The notes beneath the pieces are model-generated. The model was given only the letters and a program-made list of their open reading frames with translations, was not told where the DNA came from and made no database searches. From positions 62,001 to 126,000 of the forward strand of contig NZ_VDMA02000024.1 of assembly GCF_006334915.2 (NCBI RefSeq): a DNA stretch of 64,000 nt, in the 5' to 3' direction. Shown here piece after piece: positions 4,728 to 15,768 of the stretch. The first letter of the stretch is position 1. Each line of letters starts with the position of its first letter. Origin of the DNA: Microbispora catharanthi (GTDB taxonomy: Bacteria; Actinomycetota; Actinomycetes; Streptosporangiales; Streptosporangiaceae). Made by a program: the position numbers and the translations under genes.

Positions 4728-6544
4728 GCCTGCCCCTTCTCCGCTTTCCTGATCATCCCGAGCTGCATCCACACCCCGGACGACAGCCGCAGGGACTCGT
4801 CGTCGTCGGGCGGGAACGCGGTGTACCGGGAGGTGTTCACGAACTGGGTGTTCACGTAGTCCCAGAGCTGGACGACCGGAAGCTGCTCGTTGGCGACCTT
4901 GGCCAGGACGCCGACGATGCGCCGCTGCTCGTCGTGGGACGCGAAGTTCAGCGTGCTGGTCAGCTCGCCCGGGTCGACCGTGCCGGCGGCGCCGGCGTCG
5001 ACCTTCTCCGGGCCGCCCATCCAGTTGCCCTCGGTGCCCGGCGCGACGTGCCGCAGCCTGCCGCCGAACATCTGCCAGCCGTTCGCCTGGCCGAACAGCC
5101 GCTGGAAGATGTTGTACGGCGAGGGGCCGAGGCCGATCAGCCAGAACCCGAGGTCGTACTTGCCGTCGGCCAGCTCACCGAGATAGAGCGTGTAGTCGGC
5201 GGCGGTGACCACGCTCGCGTCGATGCCGTGGTCGCTGAGCTGGCTGCTGATCGACTTGGCCGCGGCGACCCAGTCGGAGAACGACGCGGGCACGTGGATG
5301 CGGACCTTCCACGGGCTGCCGTCCGGCAGGGCCCAGTGGCCGCCCCGCTTGGTCATGCCGGCCGCCTTCAGCTCGGCGTCGGCCTTGCCGGGGTTCACGC
5401 GGTACTGCTCAAGGGTGTCGAACGCGTCGCCCAGCCAGGCCCGGGCCGCCTTGGCGTGGATGCCCGAGGTGGTGGCGGCGGGCGTGCCGCCCTCCGGGGA
5501 GGCGATCTTCGTGACCTGGGCGCGGTCGATCAGGTAGGCAATCGCCCGCCGCACGTGCACGTTGTCGTACGGCTTGCGCGACTGGTTGAACGCGAGGGAG
5601 ACCGCCACGGGCGAGTAGCCCTTGACCACCTCGCTGCCCTTCGCGTCGCGGATCCGGTTCATGACGGCGGTGGGCACGGAGGTGAAGGGGGCGTTGTCCA
5701 GCCGGCCGGCGATCAGGTAGTTCCAGATCTGCTCGTTGCCGGTGTAGTTCAGGATCTTCACCTTGTCCGGCGCGATGTTCTGCCGGGCGTAGAAGTAGGG
5801 GTTGCGCTTGAGCAGCGCCGCGCCCGGGTTCACCCGCTCCAGCACGAACGGCCCGGCGGACACGTCGTGACCGGGGTTGAAGGCGATGACCTTCTCCGCC
5901 AGCCCGGTGATCTGGCTCTTCGCCTTCTCGGCCGACGCGCCCTGGCCGTGCTGGGCGACCTTGAGCGTCTGCCAGAAGTCCGCGGGCAGCAGCTTCCCGA
6001 AGACGTGCGCGGGCACGACCACGGTCGACAGCAGGTTGGCGAGGAACGTCGAGCTGCGGTTGGCGCCCTGCGTCACCCTCATCGTCGTGGGGTCGACGAC
6101 CTGGATGTCGGCGGCGGCGCCCGCCGCCTTCGGGTCCAGCGCGTACGCCGTGCCGCCCTGGGTGTAGGCGAGACCGATCGAGACACGCACGTCCTCGCTG
6201 GTCACCGGCGTGCCGTCGGACCACTTGGCGTTCGGCTGCAGGTGGATCACGACCTCCGACCGGTCCGGGGACATGCTCCAGCTCTTGGCGATGGCCGGGT
6301 AGAACTGGTTGGGATCGGTGGGGTCGTTCTTGGGCCACGCCAGCGCCATGCCGTTGTATCCCGAGAAGACCGATCCGACGGGGTTGAACGGGTTGATCGG
6401 CGCGCTCGCGTTGATCTGCTTGCTGCCGTCGATCGTGGTGTACACGCCGCCGCCCTGCTGGGCGGTGTCCGTCGTCCCGGTAGTGCCGCAGGCGGTGGCT
6501 GTGACGATCGACGCCAGAGCCACGATCGCCGCGAGTCGCTTCAT
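4724..6544 (-). CDS. Peptide ABC transporter substrate-binding lipoprotein (SBP_bac_5)
   Basis: This extracytoplasmic solute-binding lipoprotein has 606 aa, longer than typical DppA/OppA (about 540). The signal peptide MKRLAAIVALASIVTATAC ends in a lipobox with Cys19, so it is probably lipid-anchored. SBP_bac_5 features include the early segment NPFNPVGSVFSGYNGMALAW, WSDGTPVTSEDVRVSI (the conserved W-x-D-G-x-P-x-T-A/S-x-D-V motif, about residues 107-122), and YDNVHVRRAIAYLIDR (the conserved V-R-x-A-x-x-x-x-I-D-R helix). The start has a good AGGAG site. It is the first gene of the importer operon and follows a clear promoter. It would deliver oligopeptides, possibly cell-wall peptides or muropeptides, to the permeases. 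Confidence 0.93.
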   Translation of the reverse strand: MKRLAAIVALASIVTATACGTTGTTDTAQQGGGVYTTIDGSKQINASAPINPFNPVGSVFSGYNGMALAWPKNDPTDPNQFYPAIAKSWSMSPDRSEVVIHLQPNAKWSDGTPVTSEDVRVSIGLAYTQGGTAYALDPKAAGAAADIQVVDPTTMRVTQGANRSSTFLANLLSTVVVPAHVFGKLLPADFWQTLKVAQHGQGASAEKAKSQITGLAEKVIAFNPGHDVSAGPFVLERVNPGAALLKRNPYFYARQNIAPDKVKILNYTGNEQIWNYLIAGRLDNAPFTSVPTAVMNRIRDAKGSEVVKGYSPVAVSLAFNQSRKPYDNVHVRRAIAYLIDRAQVTKIASPEGGTPAATTSGIHAKAARAWLGDAFDTLEQYRVNPGKADAELKAAGMTKRGGHWALPDGSPWKVRIHVPASFSDWVAAAKSISSQLSDHGIDASVVTAADYTLYLGELADGKYDLGFWLIGLGPSPYNIFQRLFGQANGWQMFGGRLRHVAPGTEGNWMGGPEKVDAGAAGTVDPGELTSTLNFASHDEQRRIVGVLAKVANEQLPVVQLWDYVNTQFVNTSRYTAFPPDDDESLRLSSGVWMQLGMIRKAEKGQA

Positions 6545-10608: not shown

Positions 10609-11580
10609 ATGGATCCGCTCGAAGACGTGCTCGCGCTGCTGGGCACCCGGGCACACCTGTCCACGGGGATGACGGCGGGCGGCAGCTGGGCGGTGCGCTT
10701 CGAGCCGCCGGACGGCGTGAAGTTCAACAGCATCCGGCGCGGCCGGTGCCTCCTGGGTGTCGAGGGCCTCACCGCGCCGATCCCTCTGGCGGAGGGCGAC
10801 TGCTTCCTGCTCACGCACCCCCTCGCCTTCACTCTCTCCAGCGACCCCCACACCGTCCCGGTCGACGCCGAGCCCTTGTGGAGCGCCGCCCGGGGCCGCC
10901 TCCCCCACGTCGGCGACGGTGTGGACACGTTGATCACGGGCGGCCGCTTCTCGTTCGGCGACCGCGCGCGCGAGCTGCTGCTCGACGGGCTGCCGCCGGT
11001 CATCCACGTGCCCGCGGAAACCGGCGAGGCGAGCGCGGTGCGGTGGGCCCTCGGTCAGATCGACGCCGAGCTGCGGGGGCGTCCGATCGGCTCGACGCTC
11101 GTGGCCGAGCATCTCGCCGTGGTCATGCTCATCCACGTGCTGCGTCTGCATCTCGCCCGCGAGCCCCGCGCGGTGTCGGGCTGGCTCGCCGGTCTCGCCG
11201 ACCCCGTGGTCGCGGCGGCACTGCGGTCCATGCACTCCCGGCCCGCCCACCCGTGGACCGTCGCGGAGCTGGCACGGGCCGGTGCGGTGTCCCGATCCAC
11301 CCTCGCCGCGCGGTTCAAGGACACGGTCGGTCTCGGTCCCCTGGACTACCTCACCCGATGGCGGATCGAGCTCGCTTCCCGGCGCCTGCGCATGGGCGAC
11401 GACACGCTCGCCACGATCGCCCTCGCCGTGGGCTACGGCTCGGAAAGCGCCCTGAGCACCGCGTTCAAGCGGATCACCGGCCTCTCGCCGCGCGAGTATC
11501 GCCGGCGGCGTGCGGGCACGGCCCTTGTCTCTGCGGCCGTCGCGGCGTCCCCGAGCCCGGCGTCGCAGGCCGGCGGTTGA
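10609..11580 (+). CDS. AraC-family transcriptional regulator
   Basis: This is a cytoplasmic DNA-binding regulator of 323 aa. Residues about 1-190 form a cupin-like AraC_binding domain (DVLALLGTRAHLSTGMTAGG and the segment EGDCFLLTHP). Residues about 215-300 carry two helix-turn-helix motifs: WTVAELARAGAVSRSTLAAR, then TLATIALAVGYGSESALSTA, ending FKRITGLSPREYRRR, the classical AraC C-terminal signature. The cupin_6-type AraC proteins of this kind commonly flank SDR or alpha/beta-hydrolase genes, as here with the divergent SDR. The Ala/Ser-rich tail after residue 300 is probably unstructured. Confidence 0.93.
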   Translation: MDPLEDVLALLGTRAHLSTGMTAGGSWAVRFEPPDGVKFNSIRRGRCLLGVEGLTAPIPLAEGDCFLLTHPLAFTLSSDPHTVPVDAEPLWSAARGRLPHVGDGVDTLITGGRFSFGDRARELLLDGLPPVIHVPAETGEASAVRWALGQIDAELRGRPIGSTLVAEHLAVVMLIHVLRLHLAREPRAVSGWLAGLADPVVAAALRSMHSRPAHPWTVAELARAGAVSRSTLAARFKDTVGLGPLDYLTRWRIELASRRLRMGDDTLATIALAVGYGSESALSTAFKRITGLSPREYRRRRAGTALVSAAVAASPSPASQAGG

Positions 11581-11684: not shown

Positions 11685-12254
11685 ATGCCGGTGACATCGC
11701 CTCTCCGCCTCGCCCGAGCCGCCGCCTTCACCGCGGTGTGCCTCGGTCTGGGCGTGGTGGCGCACCTGTTCAGCGGTGGCGTGGTCGCCCCCGGCGCGCT
11801 GGCGCTGGGCCTGCCGGCGGTCTTCGCCGCCGCGCTGCCCCTGTCCGGCAGGGAACGGACGCTGCGCGCGATCCTGCCCCTGCTCGCGGCCCTGCAGGTC
11901 GCGCTGCACGTATTGTTCGCCCTGTCGGCCCCGTCGTCGTCCGCCTCGCATGTCCTGGCCGGGCATGCCATGGCCGGGCACGCGCATGCCGGGCCGGGCT
12001 TCGGAATGCTGCTCGGCCACGGCTGGGCGGTGGTGCTGACGGCTCTGTGGCTCGCGAGGGGCGAGGCCGCCCTCTGGGCGCTGCTGCGGCGGCTCGCCGT
12101 ACGGCTCACGCGGATCGCGGCCGATCCGGCTCCGCCGGTGTTCGCGCTGCCCGCGTCGCCGCATCCTGACGGGGCGCGGCTGCCGCGCTCCGTCGCGCCG
12201 CTGCACTGTGTCACCCGACGCGGCCCACCCCGCCTTCTCCAGCCGTCCGCCTGA
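11685..12254 (+). CDS. Copper-locus integral membrane protein with His/Met-rich loop
   Basis: This 189-aa protein has about four hydrophobic segments: AAFTAVCLGLGVVAHLFSGG, LGLPAVFAAALPL, ILPLLAALQVALHVLFAL and WAVVLTALWLARG. Between the third and fourth is a His/Met-rich stretch, HVLAGHAMAGHAHAG, which could bind Cu(I). It is clearly paralogous to the minus-strand protein at 15178-15768: shared RLARxAAFxAVC, GRER, ALWLARGEAALW and a C-terminal RRGPPxLL. The gene precedes a PCu(A)C chaperone and a DyP peroxidase on the same strand, so a role in copper trafficking is likely but inferred. ATG 11685 lacks a strong Shine-Dalgarno site. I do not recognise a named family. Confidence 0.75.
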   Translation: MPVTSPLRLARAAAFTAVCLGLGVVAHLFSGGVVAPGALALGLPAVFAAALPLSGRERTLRAILPLLAALQVALHVLFALSAPSSSASHVLAGHAMAGHAHAGPGFGMLLGHGWAVVLTALWLARGEAALWALLRRLAVRLTRIAADPAPPVFALPASPHPDGARLPRSVAPLHCVTRRGPPRLLQPSA

Positions 12255-12475
12255 GACGGCGCCTCTCACTCCGCTCCCGGCCGTGTACGGCCCTGCGAGC
12301 GTTGTCGATGCTCTTTTCCGGCGGAGCATGCCCGCGCGCATGCCCCGATCTGCGGCCGTGGCGGCCGGTCCCGCCTCGCTGCCCCCGCCTCGCCGGGGAC
12401 GGCCCGCGGGGGCCGCCTCGCATGCCCGGGAACGCCGCCCGCGTGCCCGCCGGACGACCGAGAGAAGGCTTTCGC

Positions 12476-13009
12476 ATGACCATCACCATCGTTAACCGCG
12501 TGCTCCCGGCGGCACTGGCCGCACTCCTGGCCGCCGGGGCCTGTGCCGCGCCGTCCGGCACCACCACCGGCGCCGCCTCCCCGGCCGCGGCGCAGGCCCC
12601 CGCCTCCGCGGCGGCCGCCCCGCTGTCGATCAGCGACCCGTGGGTGAAGACGGCCCGCTCCGGCATGAGCGCCGCCTTCGCCACGCTCGTCAACACCACC
12701 GGCGAGGCGGTGACCGTCGTCGCGGCGAGCACTCCTGTCTCCCCGTCCGTGGAGCTGCACGAGGTCGTCGGAGACGGCGGCACCACGACCATGCGCCGCA
12801 AGCAGGGCGGGTTCGTGATCCCCGCCGGTGGCCGGCACGTGCTCCAGCCCGGCGGCGACCACATCATGCTCATGAACGTGCGCACGGCCGTCGAGCCCGG
12901 CGCGGAGGTGCCCTTCACGCTCACCCTGAAGGACGGCAGGACGGTGTCCTTCACCGCGGTGGCCAAAGACTTCGCCGGCGCCAACGAGTCCTACGCCCCT
13001 CATGAGTGA
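12476..13009 (+). CDS. PCu(A)C periplasmic copper chaperone, lipoprotein
   Basis: This extracytoplasmic Cu(I) chaperone has 177 aa, with start ATG 12476 behind GAGAGAAGG. The lipoprotein signal ends LLAAGAC with Cys23, followed by an Ala/Pro/Ser linker. The family's copper motif H-x10-M-x22-H-x-M is intact: His95 (VELHEV), Met106 (TTMRR), His129 and Met131 (GDHIMLM). Family members deliver copper to cytochrome oxidase or to extracellular cuproenzymes. The stop overlaps the start of the DyP peroxidase gene by eight bases, so the two are translationally coupled. This pairing recalls the Streptomyces copper-trafficking genes in which a Tat-exported DyP enzyme acts with copper chaperones. Confidence 0.93.
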   Translation: MTITIVNRVLPAALAALLAAGACAAPSGTTTGAASPAAAQAPASAAAAPLSISDPWVKTARSGMSAAFATLVNTTGEAVTVVAASTPVSPSVELHEVVGDGGTTTMRRKQGGFVIPAGGRHVLQPGGDHIMLMNVRTAVEPGAEVPFTLTLKDGRTVSFTAVAKDFAGANESYAPHE

Positions 13010-14216
13010 GAGCGGACACCCGGCGGGACGGCGGCTGACCCGGCGCGGCCTGCTCGCGGGAGGGGCGGTCGCCGCCGCGGCGGCGGCGTGCGCCCCGGCC
13101 TCCGCCGCACCGGATACGGCGGGGCGCGCATCGGCCGGGCCCGCGCCCCTCCCCGGCGGTGACGCCGTCGAACCCTTCCACGGCGTCCATCAGGCGGGCG
13201 TCGCGACGTCTCCGCAGACGTTCGCGGTGTTCGCCGGGTTCGACCTGCGGCCGGGGACCGGCCGTGCGGCGCTCGCGCGCCTGATGCGGCTGCTGACCGA
13301 CGACGCGCGGCGGCTCACCCGGGGCGAGCCCGCGCTCGCCGACACCGACGCCGAGCTCGCACTCCTGCCCGCGCGGCTCACCGTCACCTTCGGGTTCGGC
13401 GCCGGGCTGTTCGAGGCGGCGGGGGCCGGGCATCTCGCCCCGCGGCCGCTGCCGGCGTTCAAGGTCGACGCCCTCCAGCACGGCTGGAGCGGCGGCGACC
13501 TGCTGGTCCAGGTGTGCGCGGACGACCGCGTCACGCTGGCGCACGCGCTGCGCGTGCTCGTCAGGGACGCCCGTTCCTTCGCCACCGTGCGCTGGACCCA
13601 GCACGGATTCCGGCAGAGCCCGCAGGTGCGCGCGCCGGGGACGACCCAGCGCAACCTGATGGGCCAGCTCGACGGCACCGTCAACCCCCGGCCGGGGTCG
13701 GCGGACTTCGAGCGGGCCGTGTGGGTGCGCGACGGGTGGCTGCGCGGGGGCACCACACTGGTGCTCCGCCGCATCCGGATGGACCTGGAGAAGTGGGACG
13801 CCGCGGACCGGGCGGCCAAGGAGTTCAGCGTCGGGCGGCGGCTGGACACCGGTGCGCCGCTGACCGGCCGGGCCGAGACCGACGAGCCCGACTTCGCCGC
13901 GCTCGGCCCGTCGGGCCTGCCGGTGATCTCCGAGTACGCGCACATCCGCCGCGCCCGGGTGGCCGACCCGGGCATGCGCATCCTGCGCCGGGCCTACAAC
14001 TACGAGGACGGCCTCAGCCCGGATGGACGGCCGGACGCCGGCCTGTTGTTCGCGTCCTACCAGGCCGACGTGGCGCGGCAGTTCGTCCCGATCCAGCAGC
14101 GCCTCGCGGAGGTGGACCTGCTCAACCAGTGGATCACCCCCATCGGGTCGGCCGTCTTCGCCGTACCGCCCGGGTGTTCCCCGTACGGCTGGATCGGCGA
14201 GGGCCTCCTGTCCTGA
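13002..14216 (+). CDS. Tat-exported Dyp-type heme peroxidase
   Basis: This secreted heme peroxidase has 404 aa. The Tat signal RRLTRRGLLAGG is followed by an Ala-rich hydrophobic stretch and a Cys in an AAAC context, so it may also be lipid-anchored. The DyP signature GQLDG is at residues 221-225 (catalytic Asp224). A probable proximal heme ligand is His314 in SEYAHIRR, and a conserved Arg lies just downstream in LRRAYNYEDG. It resembles the EfeB/DtpA branch. DyP enzymes use H2O2 to oxidise dyes, lignin-like phenols or copper-delivered partners. Overlap with the PCu(A)C gene suggests joint work in extracytoplasmic copper or heme chemistry. A perfect terminator hairpin follows 70 bp downstream. 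Confidence 0.95.
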   Translation: MSESGHPAGRRLTRRGLLAGGAVAAAAAACAPASAAPDTAGRASAGPAPLPGGDAVEPFHGVHQAGVATSPQTFAVFAGFDLRPGTGRAALARLMRLLTDDARRLTRGEPALADTDAELALLPARLTVTFGFGAGLFEAAGAGHLAPRPLPAFKVDALQHGWSGGDLLVQVCADDRVTLAHALRVLVRDARSFATVRWTQHGFRQSPQVRAPGTTQRNLMGQLDGTVNPRPGSADFERAVWVRDGWLRGGTTLVLRRIRMDLEKWDAADRAAKEFSVGRRLDTGAPLTGRAETDEPDFAALGPSGLPVISEYAHIRRARVADPGMRILRRAYNYEDGLSPDGRPDAGLLFASYQADVARQFVPIQQRLAEVDLLNQWITPIGSAVFAVPPGCSPYGWIGEGLLS

Positions 14217-14286
14217 CCGCCGTGCCTCCCGGCGGGCCCGGCGGTGCGCTCGAACGGTGCACAGAGGAGAGGGAGCACCAAGAAGA

Positions 14287-14326
14287 GGGAGCCCCTTCCG
14301 GGCCGCGTGACCCGGAAGGGGCTCCC
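14287..14326. terminator. Bidirectional terminator hairpin between the copper modules
   Basis: A perfect 16-bp inverted repeat, GGGAGCCCCTTCCGGG (14287-14302) and its exact complement (14311-14326), encloses an 8-nt loop. It lies between the convergent stops of the peroxidase (14216) and YcnI (14344) genes, so it can end transcription from both sides. No long T-run follows, as is usual in actinomycetes. Confidence 0.85.
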
Positions 14327-14343
14327 GATAGAGGCGGGGCGGC

Positions 14344-15075
14344 TCAGCCGCGCGAGCGGCGCAGGGCGGTGATGCCCGCCCCGGCCCCGACCAGGCCGGC
14401 GACGAGGCCGAGGCCGCCGAGCACCAGGGCCGGGGTGGTGTTCCCGCCCTCGTGATCGTCGTCGCTCGCCGCGGCCGCCACCGTGGGGGCGGCGGCAGGC
14501 GATGCCGGGGCGGCGCCGTGCTGGTCGTCCTCCCCCTCCTCGGCGGCGACGAGTTTGAGCGTCGGCGCGGGGTGTTCGGGCTCGGACCCGTCGGCCTTCG
14601 GCGCGTCCGCCCACTTGACGACCTCACCGTTGGAGTAGGTCTGCGCCGTGGGGAACGCGAGGGCGTCCACGTTCTTCGGCAGCGGGCCGACCGACGCCTC
14701 GAACTCCTGGAACTGGCCGGACTCGATCTTCCCGCCGGACCAGGTGATCTTCAGCACCGACTCGGTGATCTTGTCGCCGTCGTCGGAGACGACGGGCTTG
14801 GGCAGCTTGCCCCGGGTGAGCTTGACGTCCCAGCCGGGAACCGGCCGGACCGAGACGAACGGCAGCGGATGGTCGGTGGGGAACTCGACCTCCACCTTGG
14901 TGGTCGAGGCGCTGTCGCGCTCGTTGGGGACCCGGAAGGCGATCTTTGTCCAGGAGCCCTGCACGGCGGTCCCGGGGTTGACGGTGACGTGGGCGAGGGC
15001 GGGCACGGCGAGACCGATGGTGAGCGCGAGGACACCGGCGGTGACGGTGGCCGCACGACGGACATACGAGGTCAT
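14344..15075 (-). CDS. YcnI-family copper-binding protein
   Basis: This exported, membrane-anchored protein has 243 aa, with start ATG 15075 behind GGAG. The signal peptide ends LAVPALA, so cleavage would leave His29 as the new N-terminus (HVTVNPGTAVQGSW). YcnI (DUF1775) proteins bind copper by a mono-histidine brace made from this N-terminal His with nearby acidic and Trp residues; a candidate Trp is in KITWSGG. The domain spans about residues 29-175. A low-complexity acidic/Ala linker with HDD-type residues follows, and then one C-terminal helix (LVLGGLGLVAGLVGAGAGIT) and a basic RRSRG tail anchor the protein. It lies downstream of a small membrane protein gene and converges on the PCu(A)C-DyP module. 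Confidence 0.92.
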   Translation of the reverse strand: MTSYVRRAATVTAGVLALTIGLAVPALAHVTVNPGTAVQGSWTKIAFRVPNERDSASTTKVEVEFPTDHPLPFVSVRPVPGWDVKLTRGKLPKPVVSDDGDKITESVLKITWSGGKIESGQFQEFEASVGPLPKNVDALAFPTAQTYSNGEVVKWADAPKADGSEPEHPAPTLKLVAAEEGEDDQHGAAPASPAAAPTVAAAASDDDHEGGNTTPALVLGGLGLVAGLVGAGAGITALRRSRG

Positions 15076-15177
15076 GGGGGTTCTCCAGTGGTCTGCGAGA
15101 TTACGGAGGCGCGCGAGCATGGCCCTATAGGGACAAGCAGGTCCCATGGGGAGAGATGCGCCGCTCGCGCGTGAAGC

Positions 15178-15768
15178 TCAGAAGACCAGGAGAACCGGCG
15201 GCCCGCGGCGGACGACCGCGTGCCGCAGCACGCCCGCGGTGCGCGGAGCGCGCTCGGAGTTCCGCACCGCGCGCCGGCGTGGATGTCCGGTGCCCGTGAG
15301 ATCGGCCCCCCGCAGCGCGAGCAGCGCACGCACCAGCACGGCCACCGCCCGCAGGCAGCGGACCGCCCCGGCGCCGATCGCGCGCAGCACGGACCACAGG
15401 GCCTCCTCGCCGCGCGCCAGCCACAATCCGGTGAGGGTCGCCGCGGTGAGGTGGGCGGTGAACATGCCGGTCTGCGTGCTCAGGCCGCCGTGCCAGGTGG
15501 GGTGTGACATCGCGGCGGACCCCGCGGCGTCGAGGAGAAAGTGCAGGAACACCTGCGCGCCGGCCAGCAGACCGACGATCGCCTGGGGCGACCGTTCCCG
15601 GCCCGCCGCGACGGCCGCGCCTGCCGTCACCGTGAGCACTCCCGTGAGGAGCGCGGCGGGCGTCGGCCCGCCTCCGCCGGCGAACCGGTGCGCGCCGACG
15701 GCGAGGAGCACGCAGACGGCGGAGAAGGCGGCCGACCGCGCGAGCCTGAAGGAGAGCGTGGCGCGCAT
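15178..15768 (-). CDS. Copper-locus integral membrane protein, paralog of 11685-12254
   Basis: This 196-aa protein has four hydrophobic segments (AAFSAVCVLLAVGAHRFAGG, LLTGVLTVTAGAAVAAG, IVGLLAGAQVFLHFLL, LTAATLTGLWLARG). It shares with the plus-strand protein at 11685-12254 the N-terminal RLARSAAFSAVC, the GRER loop, the GLWLARGEEALWSVLR motif and the C-terminal RRGPP tail, so the two arose by duplication. It has fewer His/Met residues in the loop (SHPTWHGGLSTQTGMF). It is the probable first gene of the YcnI transcript (103 bp before YcnI). Family and activity are unknown to me; membership of a copper module is inferred from neighbours. Confidence 0.75.
   Translation of the reverse strand: MRATLSFRLARSAAFSAVCVLLAVGAHRFAGGGGPTPAALLTGVLTVTAGAAVAAGRERSPQAIVGLLAGAQVFLHFLLDAAGSAAMSHPTWHGGLSTQTGMFTAHLTAATLTGLWLARGEEALWSVLRAIGAGAVRCLRAVAVLVRALLALRGADLTGTGHPRRRAVRNSERAPRTAGVLRHAVVRRGPPVLLVF

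Follow-up and report, generated by a model that had tools for sequence, protein, structure and literature searches.

What do two paralogous, unannotated membrane proteins do at the head of two converging sets of copper genes? The question arises from a window of 64,000 nucleotides (nt) of Microbispora catharanthi (assembly GCF_006334915.2, contig NZ_VDMA02000024.1, positions 62,001 to 126,000; positions below count from the first letter of the window), in which converging gene sets span 11685–15768. The plus strand encodes a membrane protein, a PCu(A)C copper chaperone and a DyP-type peroxidase, and the minus strand encodes a second membrane protein and a YcnI protein (Table 1). This gene order and these positions, which the original prediction had read as a possible copper-handling module built on the two membrane proteins, were confirmed. 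Such a module was not supported. Instead, the membrane proteins showed an RGPP arrest tail, a first-gene position and pairing of the arrest region with the Shine–Dalgarno site of the next gene. We propose that both (leader 1, P0001, and leader 2, P0002) are cis-acting arrest leader peptides, in which a stall would open the Shine–Dalgarno site of the next gene and the four-helix part would sense a signal, most likely copper, with the gene on at low copper. We regard this reading as probable, though well short of certain.

The two leaders are paralogs, as had been predicted: 85 of 201 aligned columns were identical (42%, E 5e-26), and the motifs RLARxAAF, GRER, LWLARGE and RRGPP were common to both. 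The predicted HVLAGHAMAGHAHAG loop was present in the plus-strand protein. Their family is also uncharacterised, as claimed. Neither protein reached the cut-off of any Pfam or NCBIfam family, and among 73 members only sub-threshold or single-member hits were obtained. The family was surveyed in 92 full copies from 38 genomes (96 places were listed, of which four short fragments were left out). The motif RGPP stands 7 residues from the C-terminus in leader 1 and 5 in leader 2, and R[GA]PP was present in 89 of the 92 copies (80 RGPP, 9 RAPP). Within 40 residues of the end it occurred in 86 of the 92 copies, whereas shuffled tails would be expected to carry it in 4.7; 0 of 168 neighbouring proteins had it. 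Mean pairwise identity was 95% in RGPP, 20% in the linker and 54% in the fourth transmembrane helix plus RGE segment. Of the 212 Pro codons at the arrest site, 71 were the rare CCT or CCA, compared with 109 of the 1490 Pro codons elsewhere in the leaders.

According to Fujiwara et al. 2025 (PMC12992588, cited here from its main sections), both RGPP and RAPP arrest ribosomes strongly, no tetrapeptide is avoided more than RGPP in bacterial proteomes across many phyla, and an enrichment of small proteins with RGPP or RAPP is seen in front of YcnI, PCu(A)C, PepSY and TonB genes. Seven such proteins of Streptomyces lividans have C-terminal segments that arrest translation in Sl and Bs PURE systems and in Bacillus subtilis. 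Four of the seven have four transmembrane helices: SLIV_18480, with a metal-related gene downstream and three His and one Met that form a predicted copper site; SLIV_27375, with a thioredoxin-domain gene downstream and Cys88/Cys109; and SLIV_33595 and SLIV_33605, with extracytoplasmic function (ECF) sigma genes downstream. By analogy with these proteins, the window leaders would stall at RGPP. Whether and how arrest regulates the downstream genes is left open in those sections.

A single-query search with P0002 gave a match at E ≤ 0.001 in 42 of 61 genomes of the taxonomic family, and at the level of the class a 28-row profile (E ≤ 1e-8) found the family in 114 of 197 sampled genomes, spread over 38 of 77 genera. 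The 38 survey genomes comprise 35 of the 42 with a P0002 match and 3 of the 19 without; since genomes were mostly picked for having a match, 35 of 38 is not a prevalence. The next gene lay on the same strand in 85 of the 92 copies, while six had an opposite-strand neighbour and one ran off the contig. Of these 85 copies, 70 were followed by YcnI, PCu(A)C, CopC, PepSY_TM or Sco, and the predicted tie of a duplicated, unnamed membrane family to copper genes held in this survey of genomic context. Classes were named via the window's own proteins in the cluster, or by Pfam on the cluster representative. YcnI was found 21 times, PCu(A)C 14 times (usually with DyP after it), PepSY_TM 14, CopC 14, ECF sigma 8 and Sco 7 times. 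Two further genes are what we take, from the haem-loop sequence, to be P450-like, and an ATP-binding cassette ATPase, a thioredoxin-like protein, a periplasmic binding protein, another leader and an unidentified protein followed once each. In a second sample of 80 named loci, biased by the query, 75 leaders were called (the ORF (open reading frame) caller missed five), followed by YcnI (64), PCu(A)C (6) or CopC (5).

The gap from leader to next gene had a median of 103 nt and was at least 30 nt in 81 of 85 copies; the following junction had a median of 16 nt. Upstream, 38 copies had a divergent neighbour; a same-strand neighbour lay at least 100 nt away in 30, 40–99 nt away in 14 and closer in 3, and the neighbour was not seen in 7. 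Together, the arrest tail, the usual first position with a gap, and the pairing of arrest codons with the Shine–Dalgarno site described below make up the anatomy of a cis-acting leader. In a tree of 90 leaders the downstream class changed 12 times, compared with 48.5 times with shuffled labels, which indicates that leader subfamilies travel with their downstream gene. Two PCu(A)C-clade leaders (L159, k48; L166, k53) now stand upstream of a P450-like gene. Genome G027 (L132, L141, L142, L159, L163, L186) held 13 copies, some in tandem with a leader directly before another leader, and L219 and L220 carried a tandem leader–YcnI–leader–ECF sigma run, with two arrest leaders in one gene run. In L192 (G045:C36) and L195 (G008:C65) the leader frame ran into CopC with RGPP kept inside the frame, and in L159 (G027:C129:1831) it ran into YcnI with RGPP lost; these are possibly natural leader–target fusions or sequence errors. 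A leader beside CopC in L106, around 5121–5639, had YGPP in place of RGPP, possibly a decayed or variant arrest motif. Spread by plasmids was rejected: a tblastn search of P0002 against plasmids gave no match.

At both window junctions, a perfect 8-nt complement of the next gene's Shine–Dalgarno region was found at or just after the Pro-Pro codons (Table 1); the arms of leader 1 are more than 200 nt apart. In free RNA the predicted pairing probability was 0.996 for leader 1 and 0.997 for leader 2, and with a ribosome footprint (28 nt at RGPP in the folding) it was 0.0 for both. The footprint raised predicted Shine–Dalgarno accessibility from 0.002 to 0.40 for YcnI and to 0.20 for PCu(A)C.

Across the family, each leader's own partner was compared with mismatched partners. 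To be included, a leader needed R[GA]PP close to its C-terminus and, no more than 700 nt away, a gene on its own strand. This gave 187 junctions, which formed 118 clusters at 65% identity, 106 of them in named classes; these 106 non-redundant junctions made up the test, with the window represented by its close relatives L033 and L034. Downstream starts were picked by Shine–Dalgarno strength, identically for own and mismatched pairs. With broad windows (187 junctions) the own partner had a mean rank of 0.386 against 0.5, and only 12% fell in the best 5%. Narrower windows were chosen after seeing the data; the controls, the within-class permutations and the second taxonomic sample came later. 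Scanned in 18-nt windows, the own-partner excess was confined to those starting at −12, −6 and 0 from the end of the PP codons (z −4.1, −5.7 and −4.6). On the Shine–Dalgarno arm it was limited to the stretch from roughly −24 to +2 relative to the start codon and peaked at −18 to −4 (z −5.4). The permutation p was at its floor (2e-4) both globally and within class, and 26 of the 106 junctions had a perfect complement of at least 7 nt, against 3.5 expected. By class, p was 0.0005 for YcnI (n = 34), 0.0005 for PepSY_TM (n = 17) and 0.011 for CopC (n = 20). The window's taxonomic family alone gave 3e-4 (floor, n = 87) and long gaps of at least 150 nt gave 0.0027 (n = 27). As a control, 150 leaderless junctions, picked randomly out of a larger set, gave p 0.38. 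A footprint at the arrest site raised predicted Shine–Dalgarno accessibility (z 4.0 at 0, 4.7 at +10). The stall-dependent opening of the next gene is thus supported by complementarity that is specific for position and partner.

The part of the leader before the tail has a conserved core. Near-invariant columns among the 92 copies were R11 (89), H27 (92), Q72 (92), H76 (92), M102 (91), H106 (91), G120 (91), E121 (90), R188 (91), P190 (92) and P191 (90). The three His and one Met among them (H27, H76, H106, M102), a predicted copper site, were kept in 91–92 of 92 copies. The distance from H106 to the motif was fixed (median 69 residues, 5–95% 66–75, range 64–85, n = 89), and the loop from H76 to H106 varied from 27 to 48 residues. 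An AlphaFold2 model of P0002 (73 rows) had a mean predicted local distance difference test score (pLDDT) of 80.5 and a predicted TM-score (pTM) of 0.57. Its four long helices (5–29, 37–54, 61–84 and 95–157) suggest four transmembrane helices in leader 2, followed after residue 157 by a low-confidence tail with 31 residues before RGPP. This is about the length of the ribosome tunnel. A known fold was looked for and rejected: Foldseek against the PDB gave 61 matches at E ≤ 10 and none at E ≤ 0.001, and the top matches, copper storage proteins (E 0.92, TM-score 0.16), were noise.

The predicted sensor site varied beside thioredoxin genes. An extra set comprised 38 leaders outside the 92 (from 32 other-family regions of the class and six of the window genus) plus k68, one of the 92; five of 38 regions, the window's own not counted, yielded no called leader (L225, L228, L230, L235, L245). 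All 39 extra-set leaders had [RH][GA]PP near the end, and 31 had the full H-Q-H-M-H columns. Six leaders (L229, L231, L239, L246, L247 and L178 of G009:C20) stood upstream of thioredoxin-like genes. In four of them (L229, L231, L246, L247), whose downstream genes are PF13462 (Thioredoxin_4), H-E-D-L-H replaced the site and two Cys lay exactly 21 residues apart. In L231 the pair is Cys88 and Cys109, the positions reported for SLIV_27375 (PMC12992588). The thioredoxin-linked L239 and k68 retained H-Q-H-M-H. The exchange of the site for a Cys pair in four of the six suggests that the site is the sensor. Copper-type, sigma-linked and redox-type four-helix arrest peptides appear to be one homologous family, a statement not found in the main sections of PMC12992588.

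On this evidence we hypothesized the following course of events. The nascent chain, during its synthesis and insertion, would stall its own ribosome at the C-terminal RGPP. The stalled ribosome would cover nucleotides at or just after the Pro-Pro codons that are otherwise paired with the next Shine–Dalgarno site, and translation of YcnI or of PCu(A)C–DyP would be switched on. The sensor would be the four-helix membrane part with His27, Gln72, His76, Met102 and His106; copper binding or folding there would pull the tail through the tunnel and end the stall, and upon release the hairpin would close and the gene would be off. The downstream genes would then be on when extracytoplasmic copper is scarce, although the sign could be reversed as in CutF. 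We infer copper as the ligand, from the conserved His/Met site together with the copper genes, and likewise the sign of the response; low copper as the on state is preferred because RGPP stalls by default and most downstream genes serve copper delivery or uptake. A transport or chaperone role of the finished leader protein is possible in addition.

Several observations weigh against this proposal. Three of the 92 copies were without R[GA]PP (one has HGPP, one is a fragment and one reads on in frame into YcnI), and in two of the 89 the motif was internal, with the leader frame continuing into CopC without a stop. Pairing was not significant for PCu(A)C (p 0.34, n = 16), ECF sigma (0.14, n = 11) or Sco (0.53, n = 8) junctions, and outside the window's taxonomic family it was marginal (0.061, n = 19; 0.049 with the arm at +3 to +24). 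The other 33 window offsets were not all flat, with z +3.2 at −120, in the wrong direction, and −2.4 at −36. The mean gain in predicted accessibility was small over 92 junctions (0.317 to 0.372 at 0, and to 0.384 at +10) and was absent for ECF sigma. The Met102 column held Thr or Ala in four YcnI-linked leaders from the taxonomic family of the Cys-pair leaders, two of them from short-called ORFs. Finally, copper binding by the His/Met site is suggested by residue conservation and genomic context only.

The alternatives differ from our proposal in output, in sign or in what is sensed. The gate could stay as proposed with the sign of CutF, so that a stall lengthened by copper binding switches the operon on. 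CutF of Rhodobacter does so with a stem-loop over the cutO Shine–Dalgarno site (PMC9973294). RGPP segments, however, stall alone in PURE (PMC12992588), while the CutF motif alone did not in the fusions described in PMC9973294, and the resting state here is therefore more likely the stalled one; downstream genes mostly for copper delivery or uptake would also be expected to act at low copper. We consider the CutF-like sign possible but rather unlikely. An output by attenuation, with the RGPP stall blocking Rho, copper freeing the ribosome, termination following in the intergenic region and the Shine–Dalgarno pairing incidental, has a precedent in CruR of Bordetella (PMC9426467), and would suit the PCu(A)C class, which has a long gap (median 207.5 nt) and by itself no significant pairing. 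Pairing that is specific for position and partner across the family, with perfect 8-nt complements at both window junctions, makes such attenuation improbable, as does the lack of CXXC in the 92 leaders and of a DUF2946 match among 73 members.

The leaders could also be working membrane proteins that bind or transport copper in a periplasmic chaperone pathway, with the tail a structural or targeting element. Near-invariant intramembrane His/Met residues and copper neighbours fit this, and it is not exclusive of a leader role. Yet the tail is the most conserved element and stands beside an unconserved linker, it is the most avoided bacterial tetrapeptide (PMC12992588), and its codons pair with the next start region; as a replacement for arrest, this explanation seems quite improbable. 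About as little speaks for leaders that sense membrane insertion or the Sec/YidC route and not copper, like MifM or VemP: they are polytopic membrane proteins with an arrest tail at a fixed distance, but copper genes dominate downstream by far, 91–92 of 92 copies retain the His/Met site, and four of six thioredoxin-linked leaders swapped it for a Cys pair. We rate this as very improbable.

The proposed cis-acting leaders have counterparts among known systems. Arrest leaders of copper genes are already known, and in vitro tests exist for a four-helix example whose neighbour is a metal-related gene. To this known kind the window pair adds new members. A known role thus exists for such proteins, that of arrest-peptide regulators, yet it stays copper-linked; only half of what the original prediction had set against itself, a known and unrelated role, applies. 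SLIV_18480, likened here by its description in PMC12992588, shares with the window leaders four transmembrane helices, a C-terminal RAPP/RGPP, a metal-related gene downstream and a predicted copper site made up of three His and one Met. Its downstream gene is the YcnI-like one if, as we read it, the discussion of that paper lists the genes in matching order. The same paper counts RGPP upstream ORFs before YcnI-family and PCu(A)C genes in general. CruR (BP2923) of Bordetella likewise heads a copper operon, ends in RAPP, has a fixed sensor-to-motif spacing and is relieved of arrest by copper, but is described as an exported DUF2946 protein with CXXC and a Rho-dependent output (PMC9426467). The window leaders have instead four transmembrane helices, an HQHMH site, no CXXC and Shine–Dalgarno pairing. 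Membership in DUF2946/CruR was rejected, with no PF11162 match at E ≤ 1 among 73 members, none in the window's genome at E ≤ 0.01, and CXXC in 0 of 92. CutF of Rhodobacter capsulatus is also a nascent exported copper sensor with a stem-loop over the next Shine–Dalgarno site, and differs in its CxxxC motif, Sec signal, weak proline-rich motif and copper turning the gene on (PMC9973294).

In SecM and uDF_RQH_Enterobacterales a stall opens a hairpin that masks the downstream Shine–Dalgarno site (PMC10987492), and MifM and VemP have the same hairpin-opening output as proposed here; the SecM/MifM/VemP group monitors Sec/YidC, whereas the window leaders have copper genes downstream. On the simplest reading, the proposed output is of the SecM type described in PMC10987492 and not of the Rho type described for CruR (PMC9426467). 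The sco-ecuC-SLI_4212-dtpA operon of S. lividans also joins a PCu(A)C-type protein (ECuC) and a secreted DyP (DtpA) in one operon, and is needed for GlxA maturation at low copper (PMC4736821). In that operon Sco comes first, and an arrest leader is not described in the sections of PMC4736821 used here; in the window operon the leader takes the place of Sco and of the putative copper transport gene.

Table 1. Features of the converging copper gene sets in the window
Feature	Position	Strand	Evidence or remark
Leader 1, four-transmembrane RGPP protein P0001, 189 aa	11685..12254	+	Heads PCu(A)C–DyP operon
RGPP codons of leader 1, predicted arrest site	12219..12230	+	R codon at 12219; arrest from PMC12992588 (main sections)
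Anti-Shine–Dalgarno arm GCCTTCTC, under predicted stalled ribosome	12232..12239	+	Perfect 8-nt complement of 12462–12469
Shine–Dalgarno region GAGAAGGC of PCu(A)C gene	12462..12469	+	Pairs with 12232–12239
PCu(A)C copper chaperone P0003	12476..13009	+	PF04314 1.5e-33
DyP-type peroxidase P0004, N-terminus like a twin-arginine translocation (TAT) signal	13002..14216	+	PF20628 2.8e-37, PF04261 5.1e-28, TIGR01413 9.5e-69
16-bp perfect inverted repeat, terminator-like	14287..14326	.	Arms 14287–14302 / 14311–14326, 8 nt spacer
YcnI (DUF1775) copper protein, within P0005	14344..15075	-	PF07987 1e-50
Shine–Dalgarno region GGAGAACC of YcnI gene	15079..15086	-	Pairs with 15189–15196
Anti-Shine–Dalgarno arm GGTTCTCC, starts in last Pro codon of RGPP	15189..15196	-	Perfect 8-nt complement of 15079–15086
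RGPP codons of leader 2, predicted arrest site	15196..15207	-	Sequence
Leader 2, four-transmembrane RGPP protein P0002, 196 aa	15178..15768	-	Heads YcnI operon

The converging layout itself was confirmed. The inverted repeat falls between the converging stop codons, which makes the shared terminator of the original prediction plausible, though no T-run follows the repeat in the sequence. The YcnI start at 15075 is likely from its Shine–Dalgarno site and close relatives. For the DyP peroxidase, the TAT_signal profile scored only 0.069 in the Pfam search. An ORF with an AraC-like C-terminal sequence (10609–11580) lies on the same strand directly upstream of leader 1, with a gap of 104 nt. A conserved operator upstream of the leaders was considered and rejected, the Microbispora upstream alignment being conserved chiefly over the ~45 nt that directly precede the start. 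Among named relatives, those closest to P0002 are from Microbispora (identity up to 89%). The convergent layout was present in 4 of 10 named Microbispora YcnI loci (L034, L035, L037, L040) and was not seen within ~5 kb in five (L036, L038, L039, L055, L111); the remaining one, L033, is truncated. In other Microbispora loci (L041, L044, L248, L249) the PCu(A)C–DyP leader is divergent to a leader–CopC operon, an arrangement which indicates that leader operons were reshuffled within Microbispora.

In the open-access literature searched, we found neither the Shine–Dalgarno pairing, nor the family definition, nor the site exchange; the Shine–Dalgarno gate is absent from the main text of PMC12992588. 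For this family, the pairing offers a concrete and mutable answer to the question of regulation left by that text: the 5' arm of the hairpin is the arrest site. We tentatively suggest, at somewhat short of even confidence, that a single actinobacterial family of four-helix nascent-chain sensors diversified through duplication and pairing in cis and now makes up a post-transcriptional copper regulon (YcnI, PCu(A)C–DyP, CopC, PepSY_TM, Sco and an ECF sigma factor), each leader having its own antisense Shine–Dalgarno switch in its arrest codons, and that one branch swapped the copper site for a redox-reading Cys pair before a thioredoxin gene. If the proposed leader mechanism is true, it would account for the use of rare codons for the arrest-site prolines, and simple reporters would suffice to test whether a polytopic membrane protein senses metal while it is being made. 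Unannotated actinobacterial genes, of a family found in 114 of 197 class genomes, would then become regulators.

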